A DNA stretch of 32,426 nucleotides from Candidatus Ozemibacter sp. (GTDB lineage Bacteria; Muiribacteriota; Ozemobacteria; Ozemobacterales; Ozemobacteraceae), in the NCBI GenBank assembly GCA_030446435.1, contig JASURT010000013.1:1-32426 (forward strand), read 5' to 3'. The notes under the pieces were generated by a model. The model ran no database searches. It was not told the origin of the DNA and saw only the letters and a list, made by a program, of their open reading frames with translations. A program made the translations under genes and the position numbers. This document shows positions 10,221-25,817 of the stretch, one piece after another. Positions within the stretch are counted from its first letter, which is position 1, and each line of letters begins with the position of its first letter.

Positions 10221-11794
10221 TGTTTTCGTTAATGAGATTAGCTGACACAAGATGGCTTGTCTGCCTGGTGGTTCTGCTGGCTTTTTGTATGCCCGCTTTT
10301 TCGCAGGACGGCTTCATCAGTGCCAAGAATTTTGCCGATGCCCAGGGAATCGCCTATCAATGGTTTCCGATTCAAAAAATGCTAGTGATGCGCAAGGGCC
10401 TTAATTCCTTGAAACTGACTGTAAACGAAACCGCGGCCATAATGAACGACAAGAAGGTTTATTTACCGGCGGCACCAAGAATACAGGATGGGCAGATTAT
10501 GGTTCCGGCAACCGCGATCATAAAGATTTTTCAGGGCGACACCGAAGCTTTCTCCGCACCGCCCAAAACTGCATCGAAACCGGTTAAGCCCGCTGTTGCG
10601 CCTAAACCGGCAAACAACACCGCAAACCTGAACACTTCGCCACCGATCATCAAACCTCCTGCCAATACCATTGGGCAGGCAAAGGCAGACGCCATCCTCG
10701 TTGCATTAAGACATTCCGTTAGAGACGATCATACAAGAGTAGTTCTCGAGTTCAACGAAACCATAACCTACACAACCGAAACCAAAGACAATGTTTATCG
10801 ACTCAGCATAAAAGGCTGCCGCAATCTGGTTCCAACAAGAAGAACCAATCCGGTTGGCCGCGACATAAAAAAAATGGATATCAACAGCGGGCCGAATCGT
10901 AGCGGCCTGATTTTAACCTTCACCATGGCTCAGAATAAAAGAATGCCCGAAATAGAAACTGTCAACGACCCGTTTCGTATGATCGTTTCTTTCTTTTCTT
11001 CGACAGAGCCTGAAGTTGCAACTTCCACCATAGCAGCCAACCAGGCGAAACCCGAAGAAAAGCCTGAAGAAAAACCTGTTGTAAAGGTTGTTCCCCAGGA
11101 AAAGGCCCCGGAAATCAACATTGAAGTTGAACCCGCCACCCTTGAAAACGAAAATTTCAAAAGCAGAACCATCGTTATCGATCCTGGTCATGGCGGCAAC
11201 GACAGCGGTTACACCTTTCCCGGAAGAATTCCTGAAAAGGAGATAACCCTTTCGGTAGCGCAACACCTTGCCCAGTCACTTGAAAAGGCCGGTTTAAAGG
11301 CAGTTCTATTGCGTAATAGAGATGTTGAAATGTCGCAATCTCAAAGAGTTTCAATCGCGAATCGGCATGGTGCCGATCTTTTGATTTCATTGCACGTTGG
11401 TGGCTCGAACGACCCTGACAAGTCGGGAGTTGCCTGTATGATTTACAGCAAAAGCGGCACCCATGTTCCCGAAAGCGAGACCATTCTGACAGAGGGCATG
11501 GTCTATAAGAACTGGCTTGAAAGCACAAGATTCGATCTTGCTTCGTTTCTTGCCCGTAGAATCAATACCCGACTGAAAGACCAGTTGAAAGTGGAAAGCC
11601 GTGGGGTTAAGCAACTACCACTTCTGCCACTGAAGTTCATCGTAAACCCTGCAGTTCTTGTTGAAGTCGGCATGCTTTCTGAAAAAACCGAAGGCAAGAA
11701 TCTGCTGAGCAAGAATTATCATCAGGCTATTGGCGCCTGTATTGCCAACGGAATCGTAGATTTCTTCAACGGCATAGTCATCAACAAACCCTGA
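10220..11794 (+). CDS. N-acetylmuramoyl-L-alanine amidase (amidase_3) with AMIN domain
   Basis: The enzyme cuts the bond between muramic acid and the peptide in murein. It has 524 residues in this order: signal peptide (to about 29, ending PAFSQ), a copper-amine-oxidase-N-like beta region (about 30-100), a Pro/Ala linker, an AMIN domain for envelope targeting (about 153-258, HTRVVLEFNETITYTTE), a second Glu/Pro/Lys linker (EKPEEKPEEKP), and a zinc-dependent amidase_3 domain (about 313-520). Active-site signs are IDPGHGG with His324, PEKEITL for the Glu ligand, LLISLHVGG for the second His, and catalytic Glu482 in VLVEVGMLS. The ATG overlaps the smpB stop and is preceded by GGAGGAAG. AmiC-type enzymes split daughter cells. 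The extra N-terminal beta region is unusual among proteobacterial AmiC. Confidence 0.92.
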   Translation: MFSLMRLADTRWLVCLVVLLAFCMPAFSQDGFISAKNFADAQGIAYQWFPIQKMLVMRKGLNSLKLTVNETAAIMNDKKVYLPAAPRIQDGQIMVPATAIIKIFQGDTEAFSAPPKTASKPVKPAVAPKPANNTANLNTSPPIIKPPANTIGQAKADAILVALRHSVRDDHTRVVLEFNETITYTTETKDNVYRLSIKGCRNLVPTRRTNPVGRDIKKMDINSGPNRSGLILTFTMAQNKRMPEIETVNDPFRMIVSFFSSTEPEVATSTIAANQAKPEEKPEEKPVVKVVPQEKAPEINIEVEPATLENENFKSRTIVIDPGHGGNDSGYTFPGRIPEKEITLSVAQHLAQSLEKAGLKAVLLRNRDVEMSQSQRVSIANRHGADLLISLHVGGSNDPDKSGVACMIYSKSGTHVPESETILTEGMVYKNWLESTRFDLASFLARRINTRLKDQLKVESRGVKQLPLLPLKFIVNPAVLVEVGMLSEKTEGKNLLSKNYHQAIGACIANGIVDFFNGIVINKP

Positions 11795-11804
11795 GGAGGA
11801 TATA

Positions 11805-12452
11805 ATGGCAGCAGCAAAAAAAGCAGCACGCCACAACCAGGAAACAATACTTTTTATTTTGATGGGGCTGATTATTGTCGGCCTGATCATATCAGGTTAT
11901 TTCCTGTTCGTGAAAAAAATATTGCCAGAACTGGCAGCAACAGAGCAAGTCAACAGTCTGAACTCTACCCCTGCACAAAATCAGGCCGGAGAAGAAGCTC
12001 AGGCAGCCTCAGTATTCATTCCCGACGATGACGCGCAAATTCTGACTCTGTACTTTCCGCAAAAAGGTCAGGACAACTTCCGAGCTGAGGCACGAAAAGT
12101 ACGGCGGCAAAAAATGCTGACCGCCCAGGCAAAACAGATTGTTGAAGAACTGTTGAAAGGACCTGCAAACATTGATTTCAGCACGGCAATTCCAGAGGGC
12201 ACCAAACTACGCGGCCTGTTTTTTGATGCAGGCACATTCTTCGTCGACCTTAGCAGGGAATTTGCGTCAATTCAGCAATCTGGACCATCTGAAGAGCTTC
12301 TTGGTGTTTACTCGATCGTTAACTCTCTTACTGAAATTGATCCCAGAGCCAAAGTGAAATTTCTGATTAACGGAAGCGAGCAAAACGGCGAGAAAGGTCA
12401 CATAGATTTGTCAGAGCCTCTGACTCGTTTGCAGGAAATGATTGTAAAATAA
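11805..12452 (+). CDS. Membrane-anchored GerMN-domain protein
   Basis: The protein has 215 residues: a short cytoplasmic start, one transmembrane helix (about 16-36, TILFILMGLIIVGLIISGYF), a linker, then a GerMN domain at about 72-205. The core pattern is visible: ILTLYFPQKGQDNFRAEARK, QAKQIVEELLKGP, AIPEGTKLRGLFFDAGTFFV, DLSREF, ELLGVYSIVNSLTEI and VKFLINGSE. GerMN was named in the Bacillus spore proteins GerM and LpqB, but is also frequent directly downstream of amidase_3 genes in non-sporulating Gram-negative bacteria, as here. The gene starts 10 bases after the amidase stop with GAGGAGG upstream. It probably works with the amidase at the outer face of the inner membrane; this is inferred from neighbourhood. 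Confidence 0.85.
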   Translation: MAAAKKAARHNQETILFILMGLIIVGLIISGYFLFVKKILPELAATEQVNSLNSTPAQNQAGEEAQAASVFIPDDDAQILTLYFPQKGQDNFRAEARKVRRQKMLTAQAKQIVEELLKGPANIDFSTAIPEGTKLRGLFFDAGTFFVDLSREFASIQQSGPSEELLGVYSIVNSLTEIDPRAKVKFLINGSEQNGEKGHIDLSEPLTRLQEMIVK

Positions 12453-12474
12453 AACCACCATTAGTTGGATAAAA

Positions 12475-12506
12475 CAAAAGGCTGCGAATCAATCGCAGCC
12501 TTTTTC
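12475..12506. terminator. Bidirectional rho-independent terminator
   Basis: AGGCTGCGA at 12479-12487 pairs perfectly with TCGCAGCCT at 12493-12501 around a 5-base loop, with A-run before and T-run after. It can end the plus-strand run from flgJ/rho to the GerMN gene and also the minus-strand pilin gene. Confidence 0.93.
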
Positions 12507-12525
12507 TTTTCTTTAGAAAACCTTT

Positions 12526-12885
12526 TTAACCACCCCAGGTGGCAGAAGCACAACCATGCTTGGTGCAAAAAACTTTTTTGCCATTGGGTAAGCCGTCTTC
12601 GGTACCCTTGACCCAGTCGTATTTACCCTCTGAGGGGCAAACAGGCATGCGCTGCTGAGCCAGATAAGGTCTTAAATCTTCAATTGTATCCGGGTACTGC
12701 TTATTTTCGATATTGTACAATTCGGCAGTACGACTTAAAAGAGCAGAAAATTCAAAACACTTGTTCTGACGAGCCAGATCTCGGGCCCGACGAAAATGCG
12801 GCAACGCTATCGCCGCCAGTATGCCAATAATGGCGATAACAATCATTAATTCAATTAAAGTAAAACCTTTTGTGTGCTTTTTCAT
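12526..12885 (-). CDS. Type IV pilin / pseudopilin-like prepilin
   Basis: The protein has 119 residues and a classic class III leader: MKKHTKG then [20 protein letters not shown], with Glu5 of the mature protein present, so a prepilin peptidase should cut after the Gly. The small globular part carries three closely placed Cys late in the chain ([12 protein letters not shown] and VFCTKHGCA). It could be a major or minor pilin, or a pseudopilin of a type II secretion system. No assembly ATPase or platform gene lies in the window, so the system cannot be assigned. Its 3' end faces the amidase/GerMN run across the shared terminator, and a strong promoter lies upstream (12900-12928). Confidence 0.93.
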
Positions 12886-12899
12886 AACTTTCTGAAAGA

Positions 12900-12928
12900 A
12901 TTATACAACCGTGAGAAATATTTTGCAA
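12900..12928 (-). promoter_or_regulatory. Sigma-70 promoter for the pilin gene
   Basis: On the minus strand TTGCAA (complement of 12923-12928) is followed after 17 bases by a perfect TATAAT (complement of 12900-12905), about 15 bases before the pilin start codon. Expected transcription start is near 12893, which leaves a very short leader. Confidence 0.75.
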
Positions 12929-12951
12929 ATTAAATATTTTTGTTTTATAGT
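12923..12951 (+). promoter_or_regulatory. Sigma-70 promoter for the NHL gene, sharing its -35 with the pilin promoter
   Basis: TTGCAA at 12923-12928 is its own reverse complement. On the plus strand it is followed after 17 bases by TATAGT at 12946-12951. Expected transcription start is near 12958, which supports the ATG at 12994 as the start of the downstream gene. Confidence 0.65.
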
Positions 12952-12993
12952 AATGAAGATACAAAAAACAAGATAAGGATATTTCTGTCCACT

Positions 12994-13896
12994 ATGATTT
13001 TTAAGAAAAAACTGTTATTGGCTTTGGTTCTGGCCACGGCTCTGACCACAGGCTGTGTACCCAACAAATTCCAGTTTGAAGAGGAAATCGGCAGCTCAGG
13101 TTCCGGCAGAGGACAATTTCTCAGTGCCACCGACCTTGACATTAACAAAGATGGTGATCTGGTTATCTGCGACAACGGCAACACCCGTTTTCAGGTTGTA
13201 ACCCCCGAAGGCACCGTTAAACTCACCGCCGGCGAATACGGCCGTGAAGGCTACAAAATTCATGGCATGGGCGGTCTTGGTGTTAATCACCTGACCAATG
13301 ATATCTGGGTTTGCGACCAACGTGGCAACAAAATGGTTCGTTTCGACCCGACAGGAACTCCTAATCTCAAAGTTACCACCAAGATGAAATACCCTCTTGA
13401 TGTGGCCATCGACAGGTCTGGTAGTGCCTATGTAATCATGTCGAAAAAGCCCGAAATTTACAAATATGCACCTGATGGCACTTTTCTTACCACCCTCGGT
13501 GGAACCGGAAAAGCCGCGCTGATATTTCCGACCTCTATTCTTATCCATGATAACAACATTTACATTTCTGACTTTGGCGGCAAAAGAATCGTAAAACTCG
13601 ACACCAAAGGCAACTTTCTTGCTGAGTTTAAAGACAAGGGTGAATACGAAGAAATGAAAGGCCCATCCGGCCTGCACATAGACAACGAAGGCAATATTTA
13701 TGTTCTCGATCTTGGTGAAGTGCCCGTTGTTCTCCTTTCACCCGAAGGAAAAATGATTTCGAAAATTGGTGATTTCGGCAATGAAAAAGGCCGTTTCATC
13801 TACCCCACCGGAGTTATTGCCAAATCTGAAGAAGAAATTTTTGTGCTCGACAACAGCAGAAATACAATTCTCAGATTCAAGAAGAAACCAGAATAA
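12994..13896 (+). CDS. NHL-repeat beta-propeller lipoprotein
   Basis: The protein has 300 residues. The start MIFKKKLLLALVLATALTTG followed by Cys looks like a lipoprotein signal, though Thr at -3 is not ideal. The rest is a chain of about six NHL blades of some 45 residues, each with the pattern P-x-x-V/I-x-x-D-x-x-G-x-x-Y/W-V-x-D (KDGDLVICDNGNTRFQVVTP, TNDIWVCDQRGNKMVRFDP, NNIYISDFGGKRIVKLDT, EGNIYVLDLGEVPVVLLSPE, EEEIFVLDNSRNTILRFK). NHL propellers bind proteins or glycans; the ligand is unknown. The frame is open back to 12940 (TTG), but that start lies ahead of the predicted transcription start and lacks a ribosome site, so ATG 12994 is preferred. It is the first gene of a four-gene run with mltG. 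Confidence 0.82.
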   Translation: MIFKKKLLLALVLATALTTGCVPNKFQFEEEIGSSGSGRGQFLSATDLDINKDGDLVICDNGNTRFQVVTPEGTVKLTAGEYGREGYKIHGMGGLGVNHLTNDIWVCDQRGNKMVRFDPTGTPNLKVTTKMKYPLDVAIDRSGSAYVIMSKKPEIYKYAPDGTFLTTLGGTGKAALIFPTSILIHDNNIYISDFGGKRIVKLDTKGNFLAEFKDKGEYEEMKGPSGLHIDNEGNIYVLDLGEVPVVLLSPEGKMISKIGDFGNEKGRFIYPTGVIAKSEEEIFVLDNSRNTILRFKKKPE

Positions 13897-13924
13897 AAAG
13901 CTTTTTGCGCTTGTTTAGATCGTC

Positions 13925-14947
13925 ATGAAAATCTTTAAATCACTGATTTACATGGCGATTTTTGCATTTTTATGCCTTGCCGGCTTTGCCGGCGGAGCTT
14001 TTCTCTGGGTAAGAGACATGTCTGCCCCACCTGCGAACTCAACCGAGCAGAAAATTTTTGTCGAGCCCGGAGCGAACACTCGTCAGATAGCTTCTCAACT
14101 CAAGCAGGGCGGCGTAATCCGCAGTGCTTTTCTGTTCAGAATATACATAAGATTTCTCGCAGTCGACCAACGCCTGAGACCAGGCGCTTATTTTTTTGCT
14201 GCCGGAGAGACTCTCGACCAGGTGGTTTTCAAATTGCTGAAGGGCACGATGAAAACGGTTCCGGTAACCATTCCTGAAGGCACGACCAATGCCCAGGTCG
14301 CTGAAATTTTGCAAAATGCCGGCATTTGCAATGCCCGGGAATTCGAAGAAGCTTCATTCGACCCGCTTATCGTCGGCAAAGCCTTCTCAGACTGGGAACT
14401 AATCCCCTCCGGCGAAGGCCTTCTTTTTCCGGATACTTATAACTTCAATCGCCCAACTTCGGCGAAAAAAGTTGCCGAAAGAATGTTCAGGCTTATGCGT
14501 TATCAGATAGAACGAATTTTTCAGGGCCAATTGCCCCAGAATCTCAGCCAGTATGAAGCCTGTATTCTTGCCTCTATCGTTGAAAAAGAAGCGGTAAAGG
14601 AAGAGGACCGACCCATGATTGCTTCGGTCTTTCTCAATCGCCTCAGGAAAAAGATAAAGCTTGAATCCTGTGCCACAGTTCTTTATGCTCACGGCGAGCA
14701 TAAAGACAGGCTATTGTTCGAAGATTTGAAAATTGAGTCTCCGCATAATACCTACAAATATGCGGGGTTGCCGCCAACCCCAATTTCAAATTTCGGTGCG
14801 GCTTCCATGCTTGCGGTTGCAAATCCCGCCGAAACAGATTTTCTTTACTTTGTTTCCGATGGAAATCAGGGGCATCGCTTTTCAAAATCTCTGAAAGATC
14901 ACAACCGCTACCGCAAAGAGTTTTTCAGAATAAGAAAGAAGAAATGA
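13925..14947 (+). CDS. mltG: Endolytic murein transglycosylase MltG
   Basis: MltG cuts nascent glycan strands at the inner membrane and sets strand length. The 340-residue protein has one N-terminal transmembrane helix (about 6-28), a LysM-like region (VEPGANTRQIASQLKQGGVI, then RLRPGAYFFAAGETLDQVVF) and the catalytic domain. Typical motifs are VTIPEGTTNAQVAEIL, EGLLFPDTYNF, ILASIVEKEAV with catalytic Glu220, MIASVFLNRL, and the late SPHNTYKYAGLPPTPISNFG and FVSDGNQGHRFSK. The length is normal. It begins 28 bases after the NHL stop; the ribosome site is weak. In many bacteria it is next to holB, tmk or ruvX; none of them is here. Confidence 0.95.
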   Translation: MKIFKSLIYMAIFAFLCLAGFAGGAFLWVRDMSAPPANSTEQKIFVEPGANTRQIASQLKQGGVIRSAFLFRIYIRFLAVDQRLRPGAYFFAAGETLDQVVFKLLKGTMKTVPVTIPEGTTNAQVAEILQNAGICNAREFEEASFDPLIVGKAFSDWELIPSGEGLLFPDTYNFNRPTSAKKVAERMFRLMRYQIERIFQGQLPQNLSQYEACILASIVEKEAVKEEDRPMIASVFLNRLRKKIKLESCATVLYAHGEHKDRLLFEDLKIESPHNTYKYAGLPPTPISNFGAASMLAVANPAETDFLYFVSDGNQGHRFSKSLKDHNRYRKEFFRIRKKK

Positions 14948-14953
14948 GCAGAG

Positions 14954-15775
14954 ATGAAAACATTTAAATTACTTCTATTTTCAATTCTCTTAACCCTCGT
15001 TGCGCTTTGTTCAAGCGCTCAGAATCTGGTGCAAACCAGAATCGTTTCTTTGATTCCATCTCAAACAGAGATGCTGTTCAAACTGGGTTTTGGCGACAAG
15101 GTTGTCGGTGTTTCAGACTATTGCAATTTTCCACCAGAAACGTCGAAAATTACGAAAATCGGCGGTCTTGAAATAAACATAGAAAAGGTAATGGCCTTGC
15201 GCCCCACCCTGGTGCTTGATTTGAACAGTATGCACCGAAGATATGAACTTCTTTTCGGGCAACTTGGCCTGAACTACGTCAACATGAACATAAACAAACT
15301 TTCAGACATTCCCGAAACAGCGAAGCAGATCAGTACAATATTGGGCTCAGCTACAAAAGGAAATGAGTTTGTCGAAAACTGGCATAAGGGCATGGCCGAG
15401 ATTACCCTTAACTCTTCAGACATTGAACCGAAAGTATATCTTGAAATCTGGGATCAACCCATGCAAGCAGCAGGCCCAACCAGCTTCATGGGCGAAATGG
15501 TCACTACCGCACATGGTCAGAACATCATTACCAATCAAACCGATTATCCGGTAGTAAATTCAGAGCACGTAATCGCTGCAGATCCTGATGTAATACTCAT
15601 CGCATACCCTCTGACCAATCTTGAATCAATAAAAAATCGACCCGGCTGGAAAAATATAACAGCGATTAGAAAAAACAACATCTTTGCCCTTAACCAGGAT
15701 CTTTTCGTTCGACCCGGGCCAAGAAACATCGATGGTCTGAAAGAATTGCGGCGAATTTTTTCGAATTTAAAATAG
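14954..15775 (+). CDS. BtuF/FecB-like periplasmic binding protein (helical-backbone fold)
   Basis: The protein has 273 residues. A signal peptide (about 1-22, ending CSSAQ) sends it to the periplasm. It shows the class III binding-protein pattern: RIVSLIPSQTEMLFKLGFGD, VVGVSDYCNFPPE, KIGGLEINIEKVMALRPTLV, a connecting helix, then VYLEIWDQPMQAAGPTSFMG, VIAADPDVILIAYP and VRPGPRNIDGLKELRRIF. SLxPSxTE and VGVxxYCxxPxE are characteristic of the cobalamin-binding BtuF group, so vitamin B12 or a related corrinoid is the best guess, with ferric siderophore as the alternative. No permease or ATPase gene is adjacent. It starts 7 bases after mltG. The B12-binding radical SAM enzyme encoded 3 kb further on may use a corrinoid. 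Confidence 0.85.
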   Translation: MKTFKLLLFSILLTLVALCSSAQNLVQTRIVSLIPSQTEMLFKLGFGDKVVGVSDYCNFPPETSKITKIGGLEINIEKVMALRPTLVLDLNSMHRRYELLFGQLGLNYVNMNINKLSDIPETAKQISTILGSATKGNEFVENWHKGMAEITLNSSDIEPKVYLEIWDQPMQAAGPTSFMGEMVTTAHGQNIITNQTDYPVVNSEHVIAADPDVILIAYPLTNLESIKNRPGWKNITAIRKNNIFALNQDLFVRPGPRNIDGLKELRRIFSNLK

Positions 15776-15800
15776 CTGCGGCTAAAGAAAGGTAATTTTC

Positions 15801-17009
15801 ATGAAGTATACAAAGATTCTTTTTCTTTTTAGCCTGAACCTGCTTTTAACAATCACTTCGATTCAAGCTGAGTTACCGGCGATGGATAAAATGTGGGCAA
15901 GTCTTGAACTGGCTTCAGACACAGCCAGCTTTCGCATAAACATTCCCGAAAACGGCTGCGTTTCAATCATCAGCACAGTTCCTGGACGCAAGCAGATCGA
16001 CAGAATCTGGGGACCCAGATACATGAAAAAGGGCACCTACAAGCTTGCTTTTCCAATCAGTCGGATCGAAAACAGAAGCGGCTTTGTCGAACTTTTCAAC
16101 CTGCATATAAAACCGTCAGACACGATCGGCACCAGAGGAAGCGGAGAGCGCCAGTTCAACTACCCCATGGGCATCGACTGGGACCCGGGTCGCCAGGAGA
16201 TACTCGTTGCCGACACCGGCAATGATCGCATAGTAAAGCTTTCTGCCGATGGCAGGTTTATCTCACAACACGGCGGCTTTGGCATATCATTCGGCGACCG
16301 GTCAGAAGAGCGAGAAGATAGTCTTGATGAACCTTTTGACGTTGCCACCGGTGGTTTTTCCGATTTTTATATTTCAGACCAGAACAATGACCGCGTCTGT
16401 ATTTTTGATTCATACCAGAGCTATCGTGGCAATCTTTACCCGCAGGCAAACGATCGAAGAAACAGACTCGACCGACCAAGAGGCCTTAAAATAGATACAG
16501 AAAACAATGTGTGGGTCATAGACGGCAGAGCGGACAAGGTTTTGAAAATAACCACTACCGGTGACAAGCTTTTCGAACTTGGCGGATACGGCTATAGTTC
16601 TTTTCAGCTCGAAGATCCGACCCAGATCGACGTAAACATTCTTGGCGAAATCTACATTGCTGACCGAGGCAAAGGCAGAATCGCGATTTTTGACCGACTT
16701 GGCTCATTTCAGCGGGAAATGAAAGACCACCTGAAATCACCGACCGGTGTAGCTATTGACCCCGACGGCATGATTCTGGTTTGCGACGACACCACCAACG
16801 AGCTTGGGCTATACACTCCGAGAGGGGTAAGATTGCTGCACATAAACTCTGCCGCTGACGGTTCCTTTTTTCGCAGGCCGTCAGATATTTCGGTAAATGA
16901 AAATCAGATTTTTGTTGCTGACTCAGGTAATCATCGCATTGTGACTTTCGTGCGGAAAAAAAGCAGCTCTGCTGTGCCTTGGCAAGCAAAGAGTGCTGTG
17001 ATAGAATGA
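15801..17009 (+). CDS. Secreted protein with N-terminal beta-sandwich and NHL propeller
   Basis: The protein has 402 residues. A signal peptide ends near TSIQA. Residues about 30-110 (SFRINIPENGCVSIISTVPG, MKKGTYKLAFPISR) look like a small Ig-like beta-sandwich similar in style to FlgD-type domains. Six NHL-type blades then run from about 112 to 390 (QFNYPMGIDWDPGRQEILVA, DTGNDRIVKLSADGRFI, DFYISDQNNDRVCIFD, NVWVIDGRADKVLKITT, GEIYIADRGKGRIAIFD, QIFVADSGNHRIVTF). It is a probable periplasmic or surface binding platform with unknown ligand. AAAGGTAA precedes the ATG. It closes the NHL-mltG-btuF-NHL run; the two propellers are related in fold but clearly different in sequence. Confidence 0.85.
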   Translation: MKYTKILFLFSLNLLLTITSIQAELPAMDKMWASLELASDTASFRINIPENGCVSIISTVPGRKQIDRIWGPRYMKKGTYKLAFPISRIENRSGFVELFNLHIKPSDTIGTRGSGERQFNYPMGIDWDPGRQEILVADTGNDRIVKLSADGRFISQHGGFGISFGDRSEEREDSLDEPFDVATGGFSDFYISDQNNDRVCIFDSYQSYRGNLYPQANDRRNRLDRPRGLKIDTENNVWVIDGRADKVLKITTTGDKLFELGGYGYSSFQLEDPTQIDVNILGEIYIADRGKGRIAIFDRLGSFQREMKDHLKSPTGVAIDPDGMILVCDDTTNELGLYTPRGVRLLHINSAADGSFFRRPSDISVNENQIFVADSGNHRIVTFVRKKSSSAVPWQAKSAVIE

Positions 17010-17045
17010 CTGCGATAAAAAAATAATTAGCAGGAGCGCAAACCT

Positions 17046-18026
17046 TTGAACAACAGCAGATTTCGCTTTATCGTCTGTTTCTTTGTGGCTGTTTCACTAT
17101 TATTCAGTCTGACCGGCTGCAAAAGAAGACGATCTTCCAAACCGTCCAACCAGGTAAAGCTGCCCGACAACATTCGCAGCATCACCGTCGCAGAATTGCT
17201 TCCCAAAGCGACCAAGGTAACCGGAAAATTCAAAAACGAAGTGCCTGAATCGGTCAAAGATGAATATATGTATGGCACCCTCGCCGGCCAATATGGAAAA
17301 ATAGATACGGCCAGAAAGCATTTACAAACTGCTTTGCGCAAAGAGCCCCGTTTTGTCGACGCACATCACAATCTTGGTCTGGCCTATTACAAGCAAGGCC
17401 GAATTGAAGACGCCATCAAGGAATGGAAAACCACTCTTGAGCTTGCTCCCAATTACGCAGAAACTTACTACAATCTGGCCATCTTCATGATGGACCTGAA
17501 CCGTGAAGCCGATTCGATAAAACTTTTAGAAACATGCACAAGGTATGAACCTTTTCACCTTAAAGCCAGATACGCACTTGGCAAAATCGCCCAGCGCAAA
17601 GGCAAAAACAAAGAAGCGATCAGACATTTTCGTGCTTTTCAAAGCAAAGATCGCGGTGACGTAAGAGTTCTGGAAGCTCTTGGTGAGCTTTATCTTCTCG
17701 AAGGACAACACGACGCCTCGTTGAAAGAGTTTGAAGCAGCTTCGAGAATTGACGATAAAAACCCGAGAATTCACTACCAGCTTGGCGTGGCCTATCATCG
17801 GCGCAATCTTCTTGACCACGCGGTTCTGCAATACAAGCGTGTGGTCGAGCTCAGTCCTGATAATGTAGATGCTTATATCAATCTTGGCGACATCTATCAC
17901 CATCGCGGCGAATACGCATCGGCACTGGCCTCATATAATGCCGCTCTGGCCATTGACCCAACCAACACCTATGCGTCAAGAAAGGCCAAACTCTCAGAAG
18001 CCAGGCTTCTCGAAAACAGCAAATAG
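17046..18026 (+). CDS. TPR-repeat lipoprotein
   Basis: The protein has 326 residues. The N-terminus has a lipoprotein signal with lipobox SLTGC (Cys at about residue 25), followed by a basic KRRRSS stretch. From about residue 75 onward at least seven TPRs follow in register (YMYGTLAGQYGKIDTARKHL, AHHNLGLAYYKQGRIEDAIK, YYNLAIFMMDLNREADSIKL, ARYALGKIAQRKGKNKEAIR, VLEALGELYLLEGQHDASLK, IHYQLGVAYHRRNLLDHAVL, AYINLGDIYHHRGEYASALA). PilF/NlpI-type TPR lipoproteins support pilus secretin or murein enzymes; which applies cannot be told. The start is TTG at 17046 with AGGAG 9 bases upstream. The next gene starts 3 bases after its stop. Confidence 0.85.
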   Translation: MNNSRFRFIVCFFVAVSLLFSLTGCKRRRSSKPSNQVKLPDNIRSITVAELLPKATKVTGKFKNEVPESVKDEYMYGTLAGQYGKIDTARKHLQTALRKEPRFVDAHHNLGLAYYKQGRIEDAIKEWKTTLELAPNYAETYYNLAIFMMDLNREADSIKLLETCTRYEPFHLKARYALGKIAQRKGKNKEAIRHFRAFQSKDRGDVRVLEALGELYLLEGQHDASLKEFEAASRIDDKNPRIHYQLGVAYHRRNLLDHAVLQYKRVVELSPDNVDAYINLGDIYHHRGEYASALASYNAALAIDPTNTYASRKAKLSEARLLENSK

Positions 18027-18029
18027 CAA

Positions 18030-18272
18030 GTGAAATACAATTCAAAACCGAACATTACCCGTCGACCTCTCGAAAAAGTTCAGCTAGCCCTTCTGAGTGA
18101 TCGTCTCAAATCGAGCGAAGAACACACTCAGCTTTTGTTGAAAAAAATGACAGGTGACATCGCAAACATTCTTGGCATTACCGACCGGGGTATAACTACC
18201 GAAATGGAATTTTCCGGCCGGGAATTAGACCTGATTTTTACGATTAACAAACAAAACACACCAAAAAAATGA
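18030..18272 (+). CDS. MinE-like small protein (cell division topological specificity factor candidate)
   Basis: The protein has 80 residues and a GTG start. Residues about 13-30 read PLEKVQLALLSDRLKSSEE, close in pattern to the MinD-activating helix of MinE (A-K-E-R-L-x-x-x-L-x-x-D/E-R). Then LLLKKMTGDIANILGI, TTEMEFSGRELDLIFTI follows the helix-strand order of the MinE topological domain (L-x-x-M-x-x-D-I-x-x-V-I-x-x-Y, then the two beta strands). The TGA overlaps the ATG of the next gene (ATGA), so it is a true coupled gene. In Clostridia minE lies upstream of the same radical SAM, DUF2344 and rng genes, which supports the call. No minD or minC is present here. The alternative is an unrelated small amphipathic protein. 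Confidence 0.55.
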   Translation: MKYNSKPNITRRPLEKVQLALLSDRLKSSEEHTQLLLKKMTGDIANILGITDRGITTEMEFSGRELDLIFTINKQNTPKK

Positions 18273-19975
18273 AAAAAGTTACCGATCACATCACTCACTG
18301 GGAACTCCTGCAAATAGAAAAACCGGCACGCTATCTGGGCGGTGAAGTAAATCAGGCCCAACCGAAACAGAACCCCGAGCTGAAAATATGTCTGGTATTT
18401 CCTGACCTTTACGAGCTGGGCATGTCAAATCTGGCGATCAAGATTTTTTACGAAACCCTGAATGCAGACCCAAGGCTGCAGGCAGAAAGGGCCTTTTCGC
18501 CCTGGGTAGACTTCGAAAAACTTTTGCGACACAAAAACCTGCCGCTGTTTTCACTTGAAACCGGCACCCCCTTGAATCAGTTCGATGTAATTTTCGTTAC
18601 CCTGCCGTATGAAATGACTTTCACCAATGTTTTGAACCTTCTCGATCTGGGCAATATACCCCTTACCTGGCAGGAAAGAGCAGAAGGCCCATTGGTTATC
18701 GCCGGTGGCCCATCAGCATCTAACCCGCTTCCGGTATCGCTTTTCATGGATGCAGTAGTAATCGGCGACGGCGAAGAAGTCATTCATGAGATCTGTGAAT
18801 TTCTGATTGAAGCTCGAAAAAGCGGTGCAACCCGCGAAGAAACACGCAAGAAACTTACAGCAATCGAAAGCGTCTGGGTTCCACAATTTCCCGGCAAAGT
18901 GCGCAGAAGAGTTTACAAAGGCTTTGCCGACTCAGCGCCACCGCTTAAACCGGTTATTCCAAATGTTCAGGCGATTCATAACCGCGCCGCTCTCGAAATT
19001 TTTCGCGGTTGCATCAAGGGTTGCCGATTCTGCAATGCAGGCTATTACTATCGCCCCAAAAGAGAACGCAGTGTCGACAACCTTGTAAAATACAGCCAGG
19101 AATTACTGAACAATACCGGTGAAGAATCGCTTGGTCTGCTATCGTTGTCGACCTCAGACTATTGCAATCTTGACGAATTGATAAGCCGGCTTGACCGCAA
19201 CAAACTTTATGCCGAACAAAGCATATCGATACCATCGATGCGCATGAACGAGAATACCCTCAAGCTTCTCGATACCGCACCGCACATTCGCAAAGGCGGG
19301 CTGACTTTTGCCCCTGAAGCCGGCACCCAGAAGCTCAGAGACATTATAAATAAAAACATCACAGAAGAAGATATAATAAGCGTGGTCAAGGCCACCAACA
19401 ACTCGGCATACCGCACGCTGAAGCTTTATTTTATGATGGGTCTGCCATTTGAAACTGCCGAAGATATTGAAGGAATTGCGGATCTGGTTTTGAGAATAGA
19501 AGATATTTCGCGCACTCTCAAACCACGAAAACAAATCTCGATCAGTCTTTCGGGCTTTGTGCCGAAACCTTTCACCCCATTTCAATGGAGCCCCCAGGCC
19601 AGCATTGAAGAGTTCAGAGAAAAACGCATCTTCGTACGCCAGAAGCTGCAAAACAGCAAAGCAAAGGTTTCATGGCGAGAAGAATATCTCTGCATGCTCG
19701 AAGCCGTGCTTTCGCGTGGTGACGAAAGAGTGTCAAAATTGATTCTTGAAGCATTCAAGGCCGGTTGCAAATTTGACGGCTGGAATGAGCATTTTACCCG
19801 AAGCGGCTGGGAAAAAGCCTTCGAGATTTGTCAACTCGACCCACAGGAATATCTGCAGCAAAAGCCAATCGCCGATCCCCTTCCATGGGACTTCGTCGAT
19901 TTTCAGGTTCCCCGGGCCTATCTTGAAAAAGAATACCGCGCTGCGGCCGAGATTGCTGGAGTAACGGATTTATGA
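18269..19975 (+). CDS. B12-binding-domain radical SAM protein (TIGR03960 type)
   Basis: The protein has 568 residues. The N-terminal part (about 35-190) is a B12-binding-like Rossmann domain (KICLVFPDLYELGMSNLAIK, GDGEEVIHEI, VIAGGPSASNP). The radical SAM core starts near 230, with the [4Fe-4S] motif Cys248-x3-Cys252-x2-Cys255 in RGCIKGCRFCNAGYYYRP. Later marks are LSTSDYCNLDEL, LTFAPEAGTQKLRDIINKN and LKLYFMMGLPFETAEDI. This is the conserved partner of the DUF2344 protein that follows; in some bacteria the two are one polypeptide. The family sits by rng in many genomes and is thought to modify RNA or ribosomal targets, but the reaction is not established as far as I know. It overlaps the neighbours at both ends by 4 bases. 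Confidence 0.92.
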   Translation: MKKVTDHITHWELLQIEKPARYLGGEVNQAQPKQNPELKICLVFPDLYELGMSNLAIKIFYETLNADPRLQAERAFSPWVDFEKLLRHKNLPLFSLETGTPLNQFDVIFVTLPYEMTFTNVLNLLDLGNIPLTWQERAEGPLVIAGGPSASNPLPVSLFMDAVVIGDGEEVIHEICEFLIEARKSGATREETRKKLTAIESVWVPQFPGKVRRRVYKGFADSAPPLKPVIPNVQAIHNRAALEIFRGCIKGCRFCNAGYYYRPKRERSVDNLVKYSQELLNNTGEESLGLLSLSTSDYCNLDELISRLDRNKLYAEQSISIPSMRMNENTLKLLDTAPHIRKGGLTFAPEAGTQKLRDIINKNITEEDIISVVKATNNSAYRTLKLYFMMGLPFETAEDIEGIADLVLRIEDISRTLKPRKQISISLSGFVPKPFTPFQWSPQASIEEFREKRIFVRQKLQNSKAKVSWREEYLCMLEAVLSRGDERVSKLILEAFKAGCKFDGWNEHFTRSGWEKAFEICQLDPQEYLQQKPIADPLPWDFVDFQVPRAYLEKEYRAAAEIAGVTDL

Positions 19976-20625
19976 ACGAAACACACGAAATCAAAGCCAG
20001 AGTTTTTTACAGCAAAACAAAGCAGGCATGTTACATTGCCCATCTCGACACCATAGACATAATCTGTAAAGCTTTGCGCCGTTTGCAGCTGCCTTATCAG
20101 GTTACCCAGGGGCACCATGTCAGACCGAAAATTTCTTTTGGGTCACCGCTGCCCCTTGGCCATGCAAGCCGATGCGAGCAGTTCGTTCTTTGTCTTGAAA
20201 GCATGGTCGATGACCAATGGCTGAAAGAAGGCCTTTCGCAACAATTACCCGATGGAATGGATATCATTTCCGTCGAGTTACCCTGTAAAGAAGAGAAAAA
20301 AGGCGCAAATGGCGATCTGGTGGATTATACCTTCGGTTTTACCAGCCCTGAAACAGCCGAAAAAGCCGGTGAATTTCTTTCAAACCCCGAGACCACTTTT
20401 TCACTTGTCAGCAAAGGACGTATGAAAGAATACAGACTCGGACAGGCTCTGCAGGCCATCAACAAAAGCAGCGACGGCAATCTGCAGCTGATAAATGCCA
20501 GATTTATTCAGGGCAAGCCCGAAGTTCCATCGGTATCTAAAATTGTAACTGCACTCGCCGAATTTCTCGGTGAGCAAAAAGACAATCTTGTTCAAATCGA
20601 ACGAGTTTCTTTAACCAAACTTTAA
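19972..20625 (+). CDS. DUF2344 / TIGR03936 radical SAM partner protein
   Basis: The 217-residue protein matches the DUF2344 family that accompanies TIGR03960 enzymes. Recognisable parts are the opening KARVFYSKTKQACYIAHLDT, the block ALRRLQLPYQVTQGHHVRPK, ISFGSPLPLGHASRCEQFVL and LPDGMDIISVELP. The usual family wording is R-x-x-Y-x-K-x-G-x-x-x-F-x-S-H-L-D, then R-x-x-L-P-x-x-x-S-x-G-F-x-P-x-P-x-x-x-F-x-x-x-L-x-x-G. The catalytic role is unknown; it is likely a subunit or substrate-recognition factor of the radical SAM enzyme. ATGA overlap with the upstream gene supports equal expression. It lies 20 bases before rng. Confidence 0.9.
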   Translation: MNETHEIKARVFYSKTKQACYIAHLDTIDIICKALRRLQLPYQVTQGHHVRPKISFGSPLPLGHASRCEQFVLCLESMVDDQWLKEGLSQQLPDGMDIISVELPCKEEKKGANGDLVDYTFGFTSPETAEKAGEFLSNPETTFSLVSKGRMKEYRLGQALQAINKSSDGNLQLINARFIQGKPEVPSVSKIVTALAEFLGEQKDNLVQIERVSLTKL

Positions 20626-20645
20626 AAGAACTGGAGAATAGCTCC

Positions 20646-22190
20646 TTGAGCCGAAAAATACTTGTAAACATTGGTCCTTACGAATCCAGGGCCGCAATTC
20701 TTGAAGACAACGTGCTTGTCGAACTTCTCTATGAAATTCAGGATTCAGAAAAAATCGTCGGCTGCATTTTCAAAGGCCGCGTCGCAAATGTGGTTAAGGG
20801 CACGCAAAGCGCCTTCGTCGACATTGGAATACACAAAGATGCCTATCTGACTCTTGCCGGAGTCGAAAACTACAGCAATGATGACGATTTGAAAGATGTT
20901 TTTCGCAGCCCGATACAAGACACTCTGAAGGTCGGGCAAAATGTCGTATTGCAGATTCTTAAAGAGCCCACGCCGAATAAAGGCCCAAGATCGACAATGA
21001 CCTTGTCATTTCCGGGCAGATACCTGGTTTTTATGCCCAAGGTAGACCATATTGGCGTTTCAAAAAGAATTGCCTATGACAAAGAAAGAGACAGGCTTCG
21101 CAGTATCGGTCGCAGAATCACCCCCAAAGGCAGTGGTGTCGTGTTTAGAACAGCTTCGGAAGGGCTTGAAGAAAGCGTTCTAAAAGCAGACCTCGACCTG
21201 CTGGTACGCATGTGGCGCAAAGTCGAAGAAAAATCGCGCAAGGCTTCGCCGCGCACCATGCTTCATCGCGATATTCCACTGCCGATGAAGATCGCCCGCG
21301 ATTTTTTCGATGACTCTGTGGACGAAATGATCATCGATTCAGAAGAAGCTTTTAAAAGCATTCTCGATGACTGCGACTTTCTTTCGCCTTTGCAAAGAGC
21401 CTCGCTTGAGCTTTATCGTGAAAGCACCCCTCTTTTTGAAAAATTCGGCATTGAAAAAGAAATAGAAAGGGCTTTGTCACGAAAAATCTGGCTCGATTCA
21501 GGCGGCTATATTTATCTTGATAAAACAGAAGCCATGCATTGCATAGACGTAAACACCGGGCGTTTTTCAGGCGGTTCAGATCTTGAAGAAACTGTGTTCA
21601 AAGTCAATCTTGAAGCTGCCCAGGTAATTGCCAGACAAATTCGCCTGCGTAATCTATCTGGAATGATCATTATCGATTTTATCGATATGGAATCAAAAGA
21701 TCATCGCAATAAAGTTTTAAAGGCTTTCAAGGAAGGCTTTAAAGGCGACAGAAACAAACCCAACATTCTTGATTTTTCAGAACTTGGTCTGGTTCAGATG
21801 ACGAGGCGAAGAACCGCGGCCAGTCTTATAGAAATTCGCAAAGAGGTTTGTCCATGCTGCCACGGCAATGCCAATATTCTTTCGATACAGACTCTTACCA
21901 ACAAGGTTAAAACGGCGGTTATCGACAATGCCAAACGTTTCGAAACCGGCAAAATTATCGTCAATGCCCATAAAACTGTCATCGATCATCTTCGGGGTCA
22001 GGGAAACGCAGGACTGAAAGAGCTTGAAAACAGAGTAAACCGAAGATTAATACTAAAATCCAACATGAGCCTTGATATAGAAACTTTCAAAGTCGAACCT
22101 GTTCTGGAACAACCTAGAAAGAAGAAAAGAAATGATAAACCAGAAACCGACAATTCTTCAAAATCAGACGAAGGCGATAAGCAGTCTTAA
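20646..22190 (+). CDS. rng: Ribonuclease G/E (Rne/Rng family)
   Basis: This single-strand-specific endoribonuclease processes rRNA and decays mRNA. The protein has 514 residues, RNase G size, without the long RNase E scaffold tail. It has an S1 domain interrupted by the usual insert (KIVGCIFKGRVANVVKGTQS, AFVDIGIHKDAYL), the RNase H-like and 5'-sensor parts (GVVFRTASEG), and the DNase I-like catalytic core with Asp301 (CIDVNTGRFSGG) and Asp344 (IIIDFIDME) at the positions of the E. coli Mg-binding pair. The zinc-link CPxC motif is C402-P-C-C405. The start is TTG at 20646 with GGAG 9 bases upstream and the expected first residues (SRKILVNIGPYESRAAILED). The Lys-rich tail overlaps the next gene by 59 bases. 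Confidence 0.95.
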   Translation: MSRKILVNIGPYESRAAILEDNVLVELLYEIQDSEKIVGCIFKGRVANVVKGTQSAFVDIGIHKDAYLTLAGVENYSNDDDLKDVFRSPIQDTLKVGQNVVLQILKEPTPNKGPRSTMTLSFPGRYLVFMPKVDHIGVSKRIAYDKERDRLRSIGRRITPKGSGVVFRTASEGLEESVLKADLDLLVRMWRKVEEKSRKASPRTMLHRDIPLPMKIARDFFDDSVDEMIIDSEEAFKSILDDCDFLSPLQRASLELYRESTPLFEKFGIEKEIERALSRKIWLDSGGYIYLDKTEAMHCIDVNTGRFSGGSDLEETVFKVNLEAAQVIARQIRLRNLSGMIIIDFIDMESKDHRNKVLKAFKEGFKGDRNKPNILDFSELGLVQMTRRRTAASLIEIRKEVCPCCHGNANILSIQTLTNKVKTAVIDNAKRFETGKIIVNAHKTVIDHLRGQGNAGLKELENRVNRRLILKSNMSLDIETFKVEPVLEQPRKKKRNDKPETDNSSKSDEGDKQS

Positions 22191-22881
22191 AATCGCTGTT
22201 TTATGCCTTTTGTCAGCCCTGATTTGTCGCGGCGCTTTCGCCGTAGAAGTCAAGTTTGGTTTTCGTCCGGGCGCGACTTATGAATACGAGCTTACGTCAA
22301 CCAGCAGCTCTGAATCAGATGCTTTGGGCATCGATTACAGCCATTCGCCCACTTCAGTAACCTCAAAATTTCAGGTTAAAACCATTGATTTTGAAAAAGG
22401 GGCGTTTATAGTCGATATAAAATTCAACGACCAGACTTACAGACGCTATATCAAAGAAAACGGTGAAATTTCCGGTGCACCGGGCGAAGCGGGCAAGCAG
22501 GTTCCGTTTTTCATAAGTTTTCCAGCTTTTGATTGGCAACCAGAGCAGCGCCATCAGGTAACAAGACAAATTTCTCTTGGCAGAATCAGTGTTCCGGCAG
22601 GCTGGAATCTGCTTTTAAAGTCGTTTGACCCTGATAAACAAATTGCCGAGATCTGGTTTGCTGCCAATTTGAAGCTTCCCGAAGACCGCCTGAGAAGAAA
22701 ACAGTTCTCGCAAAAGGGACGCATCTTTTTTGACCTGGCAGCAGGTGTTATAAATCAGGCTGAATGGAATACCGAATATTCATTCAATTTCATAAACAAA
22801 GAAATCGCCGTTGTAAGAGAGATCTGGGAAATCAAGGAAAGAACCTCTTTCAAACTCAAACTGCTCGACATCAAGGAGTAA
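22132..22881 (+). CDS. Secreted beta-rich protein of unknown function
   Basis: The protein has 249 residues. A long n-region leads to a signal peptide core (LKIAVLCLLSALICRGAFA), so the product is exported. The mature part alternates short hydrophobic and polar strands and opens with VKFGFRPGATYEYELTSTSS, a layout seen in several periplasmic beta-sandwich or LolA-like proteins whose first strands read F-x-P-G-x-x-Y-x-Y. I cannot name a family with confidence. The start at 22132 (AAGAAGAAAAG just upstream) lies inside rng in another frame. No in-frame ATG after the rng stop would keep the signal peptide, so the overlap seems genuine. It is followed 4 bases later by another secreted protein gene. 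Confidence 0.75.
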   Translation: MINQKPTILQNQTKAISSLKIAVLCLLSALICRGAFAVEVKFGFRPGATYEYELTSTSSSESDALGIDYSHSPTSVTSKFQVKTIDFEKGAFIVDIKFNDQTYRRYIKENGEISGAPGEAGKQVPFFISFPAFDWQPEQRHQVTRQISLGRISVPAGWNLLLKSFDPDKQIAEIWFAANLKLPEDRLRRKQFSQKGRIFFDLAAGVINQAEWNTEYSFNFINKEIAVVREIWEIKERTSFKLKLLDIKE

Positions 22882-22885
22882 ACCA

Positions 22886-23827
22886 ATGAAAAAAATCCTT
22901 GTCGCTTTAGCTCTTTTCATCTGTCTTTACTCTTCATCAGCTCACTGTGCTCTCGAAAACAATCTAACCGGTCGTTTCAAATTCTGGCTGCTGAACAACG
23001 AAGCCAGAGCTTTTTCATCTCTTAGTTTCGACCGCGAGATCATCGCCAGAGTTGAAACCGCTTTTTCAATCATTGCCAAACACCCCGACCAATCAATAAA
23101 AGCAGCCGAAACTATCTGGGAAAAGAACCGCAGCTTTTATGTTCTGCTCGATGAAATAGAACATGTTTACAGCGTTGCAAGAAGATATGGTAACGGCCGT
23201 TTTGCAATAATACTTCAACAGGCCAGACCAGAGATTTACAGCACCGTGCCCTTTCACCAATTGATTCCCGGAGTTTTCACAAATTTACAGTCTGTCTACC
23301 GTAAAGCCTTCTTTTCTGCGCTGATAAAAGCACTAAGTCTCGACCCAGACCAGGATGTGAATCTGTCAGCAAGATTGAATAAAGCCCTTCGCAAGCTTTC
23401 AGACCAGGATCTGCGTCTGTTCAACTCATATCTTGACAACTTTTCCGCATTATTCCCCGGTGACAACTCTGCGAGAATGATCAAAGCTTTTATTCAAACC
23501 GGTTCACGCGAAGAATTCGGACAAGGTGTATCAAAATTTCTCAGACCGGAATTCATAGAACTTGAAAGCCTTCCCCTGAGCGACGGAAAAAATGCTGAAA
23601 AAATCGCCGACCCACTCGCTGAGCTTGAAAAACTTGCTTCTATGAGTGATTCTTCTTCTGAACTTGACATCAGAGTTTCACAGCCTGCCCAGGATAATGC
23701 CCCAGCCACCGCCGAAGATTACCCTGAACCTGAAAACGTTGCTCCCCCGAAAGAAACAATACCCGAGAACAAGCCTTTAGAAGAGCCTGAGCCGGGTGTT
23801 GAAGAAATGTTCAATATCTGGGATTAA
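22886..23827 (+). CDS. Secreted mostly helical protein of unknown function with acidic Pro-rich tail
   Basis: The protein has 313 residues with a signal peptide ([21 protein letters not shown] then ALEN). Residues about 25-215 look helical and charged, without a pattern I recognise. From about 235 the chain becomes low-complexity, rich in Glu, Pro, Asp and Ser ([24 protein letters not shown]), and probably disordered. AAGGAG lies 8 bases before the ATG. It is the last gene of the run that began at 17046; its stop overlaps the rpoD stop on the other strand by 3-4 bases, with no strong terminator between them. An anchored periplasmic adaptor is possible, but there is no direct evidence. Confidence 0.75.
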
Positions 23828-24834
23828 TCTTTGTGGTAATAATCTTTCAGTTTGGGTGGTGAATTGGCCCGCAGTTTTTTCAGGGCTTTTTCTTCAACCT
23901 GTCTGATTCTTTCTCTGGTAACGCCGAGAATTCGCCCGATTTCTTCGAGTGATCTTGGAATTCCGTCGTCGAGGCCAAAGCGAAGTTTTACCACCATTTG
24001 CTCGCGTTCGGTAAGAGTTACCATTACGCGCTCGATCTGATCACGAAGAAGCGAATCGATAACAGCTTCTTCAGGGCTGACGGCATCATCGTTCGAAATG
24101 TAATGTTCTAAAGAAGTATCTTCTTTATTGCCAACCGTTACTTCGAGTGAAACAGGTTCCTGGGTGAGTCTGATCACTTCTTCGATTCTATCGACCGTTA
24201 AATCAACTTTTTCGGCAAGCTCTTCAGTTGTCGGTTCACGGCCATTCTCCTGAACGAAAATTCGTATATTTTTACGAACCTTGTTCACGATTTCCATAAT
24301 GTGGACCGGAATGCGAATAACTCTTGATTGCTCGGCCAATGCTCGGGTAATGGCCTGTCTTATCCACCAGGTCGAGTAGGTAGAAAATTTGTAACCAAGA
24401 GTATAATCAAACTTCTCGATCGATCTTAACAGGCCGAGGTTGCCTTCCTGAATCAGATCGAGAAAGAGAAGTCCTCGGTTGGTATATTTCTTGGCAATAC
24501 TGACGACTAGTCGCAGATTAGCTTTGATCAAAGCTTCTCTTGCATCCTGGTCTTTTTCGAGAATACGTTTGGCAAAATCCTTTTCCTGGTCATGAGTGGC
24601 CAGAGTAAGTTTTGTCAGCTGCTGAAGATAAAGTTTGACCGAATCGTCGAAAATAGACTCTTCTTTACGCTTTTCCCGCTCGTCTTGCGAATCGACGACA
24701 TCATCATCTTCTGAGCGCTTTCGATATGGTGAAGCGATTTTAATATCGTCATGATGCGTTTTTTTGCGTGTTTCACGCGGCTTTTCTTCAGTTTTCTTCT
24801 TTTTTGTCGTCGCCTTAATTACCTTTTTAGGCAT
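23824..24834 (-). CDS. rpoD: RNA polymerase sigma-70 factor, RpoD-type
   Basis: The protein has 336 residues. After a Lys/Glu-rich tail of about 60 residues comes region 1.2 ([20 protein letters not shown]), region 2 ([60 protein letters not shown]), region 3 ([20 protein letters not shown]) and region 4 ([37 protein letters not shown]). This is the pattern of primary or closely related group 2 sigma factors. Region 1.1 is replaced by the short charged tail and the non-conserved insert between 1.2 and 2 is missing, as in the shorter primary sigmas of several phyla. AGAGGAG precedes the ATG. It lies one base after accA, third in the accD-accA-rpoD run. Primary rather than alternative status is likely but not proven. 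Confidence 0.9.
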
Positions 24835-24835
24835 T

Positions 24836-25804
24836 TCAGAGCTCCTCTTCGCAACTGAATTTTCCCATGCTGCGAAATTTACTATAACGCTGTTCCAGCA
24901 ATTCTTCCCGACTCAGTTTAAGCAATGGCGGAAGGTATTTTTCGACAGTCTGCCTTATGGTATCGGCAAATTGCGCAGGATTCCGATGTGCTCCTCCGAG
25001 TGGTTCAGTTAATATCTCGTCAATAATGCCTAATTCTTTTAGGTTTTGAGCTCTCATTTTTAAAGCTTTTGCCGCTTCCTGTGATTTAAGCGGATCATTC
25101 CAAAGAATAGCGGCACAACCTTCAGCAGAAATAACTGAATAAACAGAATATTCAAACATAAAAATCCTGTCGCCGACACTTATGGCCAAAGCGCCGCCGC
25201 TGCCACCTTCACCGGTTACGAAACAAAGAATCGGAACGCCTATCTGTGACATTTCAGCCAGATTACGGGCAATAGCTTCACTTTGTCCGCGTTCTTCAGC
25301 GCCAATACCAGGGAAAGCTCCGGGGGTGTCGATAAAAATTACAACCGGCAAATTAAAACGATCTGCCATTTTCATCATGCGTAAGGCTTTGCGATAGCCT
25401 TCCGGATGGGGCATGCCAAAATTTCTGAAAATGTTTTCTTCGGTGTCGTGCCCTTTCTGATGCCCGATAAACATGACTTTGTGCTCACCAATTTTTCCGG
25501 GCCCGGCAACGATGGCCGAATCATCACTGTACAATCTATCGCCATGCAGTTCAACAAAGTCATCATGGCTCAAAAATTTGATCAAATCAAGAGTAGACGG
25601 ACGATCTATATGTCTGGCGACTTGAGTTACCTGCCAGGGTTCGAGCTCGGTATAGATTTCTTCTTTCAAGGTATTGATCTTCTCAGCAATGGCGTTGATT
25701 TCTTTTGAAAGATCGATCTTGCCATTTTCAGAAATAGACTGCAACTCATTCAGTCTTGCTTCGAGTTCAATAATGGGTTTTTCAAATTCAAAATCTCTTG
25801 ACAT
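24836..25804 (-). CDS. accA: Acetyl-CoA carboxylase carboxyltransferase subunit alpha
   Basis: With AccD this subunit moves the carboxyl group from carboxybiotin to acetyl-CoA, giving malonyl-CoA for fatty-acid synthesis in the cytoplasm. The protein has 322 residues, normal for AccA. Signs are the N-terminal [16 protein letters not shown] coiled segment, [73 protein letters not shown] and the oxyanion-hole region [19 protein letters not shown]. The frame opens 8 codons earlier, but ATG 25804 is preceded by GGGGAG, so I use it. It follows accD by 13 bases. Confidence 0.97.
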
Positions 25805-25817
25805 GAATACTCCCCGG

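Follow-up and report, generated by a model that had tools for sequence, protein, structure and literature searches.

A strongly diverged MinE-like gene, without minC or minD, ahead of the radical SAM, DUF2344 and RNase G genes in a family of Riflebacteria

In the window, which is the whole stretch of 32,426 nucleotides of a Candidatus Ozemibacter sp. contig (JASURT010000013.1), we identified a short gene standing directly ahead of a radical SAM gene, whose product is very probably a strongly diverged homologue of MinE. In textbook accounts MinE acts together with MinD, and it is best known for MinD activation. A MinE lineage that is kept by selection in genomes without MinD would thus point either to an activity of this fold that is not yet known or to an exchange of partner, and on balance we favour reading the gene as a MinE homologue that has ceased to cooperate with MinD. 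An earlier note, made from the sequence alone, had described an orphan MinE-like gene coupled to the radical SAM/DUF2344/rng cluster, and this description is supported by the presence of the gene, at the same place, in 21 of the 24 genomes of its Riflebacteria family (family f1).

Neighbourhood and conservation of the gene

The features of the region are listed in Table 1. The open reading frame was present with the residues quoted in the earlier note, and the genes that the note had placed after it were confirmed by their NCBIfam and Pfam matches. The gap between the TPR gene and the MinE-like gene is of 3 bases.

Table 1. Coordinates of the MinE-like gene, of its parts and of its neighbours in the window
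Feature	Position	Strand	Basis or remark
NHL-repeat protein, upstream in the cluster and conserved	15801..17009	+	Pfam NHL, 1.2e-23; order kept in 9/9 named loci (L133-L141)
TPR-repeat protein, directly upstream of the MinE-like gene	17046..18026	+	Pfam TPR; directly upstream in 21/21 loci
Diverged MinE homologue without MinC/MinD, 80 aa, GTG start, TGA stop	18030..18272	+	Profile, fold, selection, synteny
Helix 1 and N-terminus, codons 5-27, aligned with the MinD-contact helix of MinE	18042..18110	+	AlphaFold, profile alignment
Beta hairpin and tail, codons 55-77, family-specific conservation (EF.GR[ED]LDL.FTINKQN)	18192..18260	+	AlphaFold, family alignment
TIGR03960 radical SAM gene	18269..19975	+	NCBIfam, 1.7e-181; first 4 bases shared with the end of the MinE-like gene
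TIGR03936/DUF2344 radical-SAM-associated protein	19972..20625	+	NCBIfam, 6e-32; Pfam, 6.4e-28
RNase E/G family gene (rng)	20646..22190	+	NCBIfam TIGR00757, 1.2e-131; Pfam PF10150, 1.2e-98

The 21 genomes were found by a protein search of 56 genomes and the same 21 were recovered by a profile search of 39 genomes of the phylum, in which the other 15 phylum genomes gave no member of the MinE-like family. One weak match among these (G024, E 0.062) was rejected, as the frame encodes a protein of 155 aa that does not resemble MinE. Each of the 21 loci has TIGR03960 directly downstream of the gene in addition to the TPR gene upstream; the stop and start codons of the MinE-like and radical SAM genes share 4 bases in 19 loci and are arranged as TAATG in the other two. 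Among the genomes in which the gene was missed, two (G011 and G013) lack a TIGR03960 match above the cut-off, and therefore the region is probably absent from these assemblies.

The longer order, as far as each of the nine named loci reaches, is MltG, BtuF-like, NHL, TPR, MinE-like, radical SAM, DUF2344, RNase G and a further gene; in one of these loci (L141) the BtuF-like and NHL matches are about 2 kb apart. The further gene, located at 22132-22881 in the window, is conserved after rng in the Riflebacteria family with 32-54% identity in seven loci, and its product gave no confident Pfam family. The scan of contigs for relatives was queried with nine closer members and reaches close relatives only. 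The titles of the nine records name Riflebacteria or Rifleibacterium in six cases and Methylomirabilis, Erysipelotrichia or an uncultured bacterium in the other three. The record titled Methylomirabilis (L133, DYKG01000064.1) carries the Riflebacteria cluster and the closest relative of the window gene, and its title is probably wrong.

The dN/dS values of the MinE-like gene were 0.05-0.44 in 13 of 21 close pairs, the other eight being saturated at synonymous sites, and fell to 0.05-0.14 in the closest pairs. Since it is kept in place in 21 genomes with low dN/dS, the open reading frame is a real gene under purifying selection. The suggestion of the earlier note that it may be a relic of the min operon therefore has to be divided, as decay is not supported, given purifying selection and the intact state of the gene in 21 genomes, whereas a remnant of a min operon is what the neighbourhood fits. 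That the gene is a decaying and functionless remnant of minE is in our view very improbable. The absence of MinC and MinD would agree with it, as would the place of the gene among the least conserved of the cluster and a copy in one genome (G008) that is cut short and fused. However, elsewhere the gene is open and carries residues that are invariant in this family, the dN/dS of the closest pairs strains such a reading, and the case of G008 may be an assembly error.

In that genome (L178, G008:C155) the first part of the MinE-like gene runs in frame into a radical SAM gene whose own first residues are missing. The assembly is 64% complete in 580 contigs, and the fusion may be either a real deletion or an error of assembly.

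A further observation concerns the radical SAM protein itself. The TIGR03960 proteins of the window family stop short of a C-terminal cysteine cluster (C-x3-5-C-x2-C-G), which was found in none of the 14 rows read (window 18269-19975; L133-L137, L140, L141, L163, L164, L168, L169, L171, L178), from 16 rows given of which two were not read and with one genome entered twice. Outside the window family the cluster was found in 42 of the 47 rows read (54 given, seven not read), and two of the other five have a variant spacing. No tie was found between the loss of the cluster and the MinE-like gene, as three loci from genomes without any MinE match (L227, L228 and L241) are also without the cluster.

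Sequence and fold relationship with MinE

The relationship with MinE was not recognized by direct look-ups. None of the 21 family members matched PF03776 or TIGR01215 in Pfam and NCBIfam, none of the 24 family genomes gave a protein over the cut-off, and a PDB sequence search, with the single protein or with the family, found no MinE. The best chance names obtained (T3SS_CopN_3rd at 0.0035, acyl carrier protein at 0.071 and others), which lay below the cut-off or were weak and matched only parts of the sequence, were set aside.

The alignment of profiles gave a different picture. When the 21 family members were compared by hhalign with 38 non-redundant MinE sequences, a match over 68 gapless columns was obtained with a probability of 90.1, P 1.6e-6 and a score of 35.1; a first trial against 12 MinE sequences had given P 5.5e-4 and a probability of 30. 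No control reached this score: the maxima of 200 shuffles per side were 21.0 and 19.9 (0/400), reversed MinE gave 17.6, and 87 windows of other real alignments gave at most 17.7 (0/87). Random halves of both sets had probabilities of 74-93 in all 20 repeats. The match is carried by the MinE sequences of the phylum of G051, which alone (20 sequences) gave P 1.3e-5, and vanishes with the sets restricted to the G048 phylum (n=12, P 0.11) or to proteobacteria (n=5, P 0.12).

Moreover, when the HMM of the family was run over 6545 distinct open frames, a set that includes many loci chosen for holding MinE, the 13 frames that followed its own 21 members (ranks 22-34) were all MinE genes, with E-values from 5.6e-7 to 0.008. 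The reverse search of the same frames with the MinE profile placed the best family member only at rank 81 (E 0.33). In 381 genomes the family HMM found nine matches outside the phylum at E<=0.01, four of which are MinE genes with a minD-like frame next to them (G188 at E 3.4e-5, G331, G132 and G411); the one in G188 matches PF03776 at 5.3e-16 and stands after a MinD of 340 bits. Four more (G425, G443, G307 and G229) lie in long frames of other genes and were discarded, and the ninth is a frame of 29 aa in G048 that is not the MinE of that genome.

The helix followed by a helix-strand order, which the earlier note had compared with MinE, was recovered by AlphaFold (helices at 13-25 and 30-48, strands at 55-62 and 65-72, mean pLDDT 83), and a distant family member (L011) was modelled with the same helix-helix-strand-strand order and the same mean pLDDT. 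In both models, which are of monomers only, the helix and two-strand hairpin of the MinE dimerisation domain are found. The top match of both in the PDB was MinE (6u6r) by Foldseek, with probabilities of 0.91 for the window protein and 0.75 for the distant member and with weak E-values (0.57 and 0.47). It was also the top match by a second aligner (VIA), with Z 5.1 and rmsd 1.6 for the first and Z 4.6 and rmsd 2.0 for the second over 44/44 residues, other MinE entries being found further down the lists. A Z of about 5 may reflect a common arrangement, and such scores, which are insufficient as sole proof, agree with the evidence from sequence. Of the two signs against its own reading that the earlier note had named, one was thus found, as there is no direct match to a MinE profile, and the other was not, as the predicted fold resembles that of MinE.

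The lack of a curated match, the weak Foldseek E-values and the asymmetry of the HMM searches could also be explained by a different small protein that became similar to MinE by convergence on a helix-hairpin fold. We consider this improbable, given that the gapless, full-length match of profiles lies far above shuffled and real decoys, that MinE genes come first after the family itself among the frames searched, and that the gene shares a genomic neighbourhood with minE.

Changes in the MinD-contact helix and probable loss of a min operon

In MinE a membrane segment (2-12), a contact helix (13-31) and a dimer domain have been described (PMC6803595), and R21 is reported to act in stimulating the ATPase of MinD (PMC7276532). 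At the position of this residue in E. coli MinE, Arg is present in 38/38 MinE sequences, whereas in the window family it was found in one of 21 members, 11 having Lys and nine no basic residue. Position 18, which is Ala in 36/38 MinE, is Ala in two and Pro in 14 of the 21. An N-terminal stretch with at least four bulky hydrophobic residues within nine positions was seen in 3/20 family members against 29/37 MinE (one of 21 was too short and two of 39 MinE were not read), a count that depends on uncertain start codons. The Arg that corresponds to E. coli R30, itself invariant in MinE, is, on the other hand, kept in 21/21 members; it is R25 of the window protein and forms with L22 and L26 the invariant residues of helix 1. 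The family-specific constraint lies in the motif of the hairpin and tail (Table 1), in which G63 is invariant.

No minC or minD was found in the listed bases 10000-26000, in agreement with the earlier note. Its proposal to look for them elsewhere in the genome also gave a negative result: in the 24 genomes of the family, 14 with a completeness of at least 90%, there was no MinD over the TIGR01968 cut-off and no MinC. A working MinE with a distant minD, one of the three possibilities raised in that note, is hence not supported, given these genomes and the near-complete loss of Arg at the R21 position. A classic Min role is unlikely, and the protein is probably no longer a partner of MinD in the classic sense. 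It could have become, independently of MinC and of the membrane, a direct binder of FtsZ or of another division protein; its MinE ancestry and the lack of MinC and MinD in the family would be compatible with this, although we regard such a role as rather improbable.

The main rival of a MinE homologue that has parted from MinD is a protein that is still a MinE and activates another ATPase of the MinD/ParA type, most likely FlhG, to position flagella or division. MinD-like ATPases are present in every family genome, and the best one of the window's genome is FlhG-like and adjoins flhF, an FlhF-like P-loop protein being nearby in 11 of the 12 family loci read. Moreover, most FlhG-like proteins of the family (L067-L075, L078-L080) end in a conserved amphipathic tail, GIEGF..RL..FFKGG, like the membrane anchor of MinD. 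A basic residue at the R21 position (12/21 members) and the Arg kept at that of R30 would also be in favour of such a role. However, Arg itself is nearly lost at the former and many members are without any basic residue there. The residues of MinD helix 7 named for the binding of MinE in PMC6803595 are S148, D154 and I159, and FlhG of the window's genome has T, Y and I at these positions. Because two of the three differ, FlhG is a second choice as partner, and we consider it a doubtful one. In addition, one genome with the MinE-like gene (G022, assembly 82% complete) has a weak best MinD-like match (E 1.6e-19).

The order of genes in other bacteria is informative about the origin of the gene. 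The earlier note had likened its position to that of minE ahead of the same gene set in Clostridia, and this holds in kind. In the phylum of G051, minE lies about 1.1 kb upstream of TIGR03960 and on the same strand in 13 of the 17 genomes with matches to both. In the two loci examined for the intervening gene (L147 and L257) it was identified as rodA, and in this the window differs, as rodA does not stand between. The complete order in the second of these loci (G132) is minC-minD-minE-rodA-TIGR03960.

Three genomes of other Riflebacteria families (G024, G027 and G034; L064, L066 and L065) have instead the order TPR-minC-minD, with no MinE-type gene adjoining and none over the cut-off in the genome. 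The best match of the window TPR protein in each of them is precisely this min-linked TPR (E 1.3e-34, 2.6e-29 and 4.3e-29, respectively), the next best matches being at 1e-22 to 1e-18. In two further genomes (G028 and G030) its best match stands directly before TIGR03960, and in G026 a gene so placed ranks second. A TPR gene is therefore associated with minC and minD in some families and with TIGR03960 in others, which brackets the site of the MinE-like gene. This supports a lost min operon without proving it, as MinC, MinD and the MinE-like gene were found together in no genome of the phylum (39 searched).

Possible role and comparison with known systems

We hypothesize that the TPR gene and the radical SAM/DUF2344/rng genes were formerly separated by a minC-minD-minE arrangement, as the neighbourhoods suggest, and that minC and minD were lost in the Riflebacteria family of the window. 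The descendant of MinE would then have lost the Arg of the MinD contact and a visible membrane anchor, kept the helix-helix-hairpin fold, presumably pairing by the hairpin strands into a homodimer like that of MinE, and gained the strong conservation of GR[ED]LDL.FTINKQN. The overlap of stop and start codons in all 21 loci suggests that its translation is coupled to that of TIGR03960.

As the activating Arg and MinD are lost and yet the gene is selected and overlaps the radical SAM gene, we are inclined to propose, tentatively and as one possibility among others, that the product is an adaptor or a dedicated dimeric subunit for its operon neighbours. The partner of such a small dimeric adaptor may be, in first place, the radical SAM enzyme with the DUF2344 protein and, in second place, RNase G, both encoded on the same putative transcript, and the conserved surface of hairpin and tail would be used in place of MinD binding. 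A MinE-like fold with a new use was indeed the best fit of the three possibilities of the earlier note, the fold agreeing with the models and the new use being the conjectural part. If this is true, the uncharacterised TIGR03960/DUF2344 set or RNase G has gained a part recruited from the division machinery. In E. coli a link between MinD and RNase E has been published, with RNase E modelled in the MinE-binding pocket of MinD (PMC10897333), so that the worlds of division and of RNases can touch. The gene also offers a handle on the TIGR03960/DUF2344 pair, on which a literature search found no dedicated paper; none turned up either on a MinE that lacks MinD or on the Min proteins that Riflebacteria have, for terms of which "MinE" also matches an English word and in a literature where subscription papers are mostly outside reach.

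The closest known system is MinE itself (PF03776, TIGR01215). The window family resembles it in length, in the order of helices and strands, in the gapless profile match and in being matched best to it in fold, and moreover in the invariant Arg at the R30 position and in its site ahead of TIGR03960, as in the phylum of G051. It differs in failing the curated models, in not keeping R21 and A18, in having no clear N-terminal membrane anchor, in the added conservation of its hairpin and tail, and in belonging to genomes without MinC and without MinD over the cut-off. Because the curated cut-off, R21 and the presence of MinD were all tested and none was found to hold, the gene is not filed under MinE proper and is a diverged variant of it. 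With the minC-minD-minE-rodA-TIGR03960 order of G132 the window shares a gene of MinE type that precedes the radical SAM gene, whereas it is without minC, minD and rodA and has a TPR gene upstream instead. With the TPR-minC-minD order of the other Riflebacteria families it shares the TPR gene, theirs being the closest relative of the window TPR in those genomes; these have MinC and MinD without a MinE over the cut-off, and the window family is the opposite.
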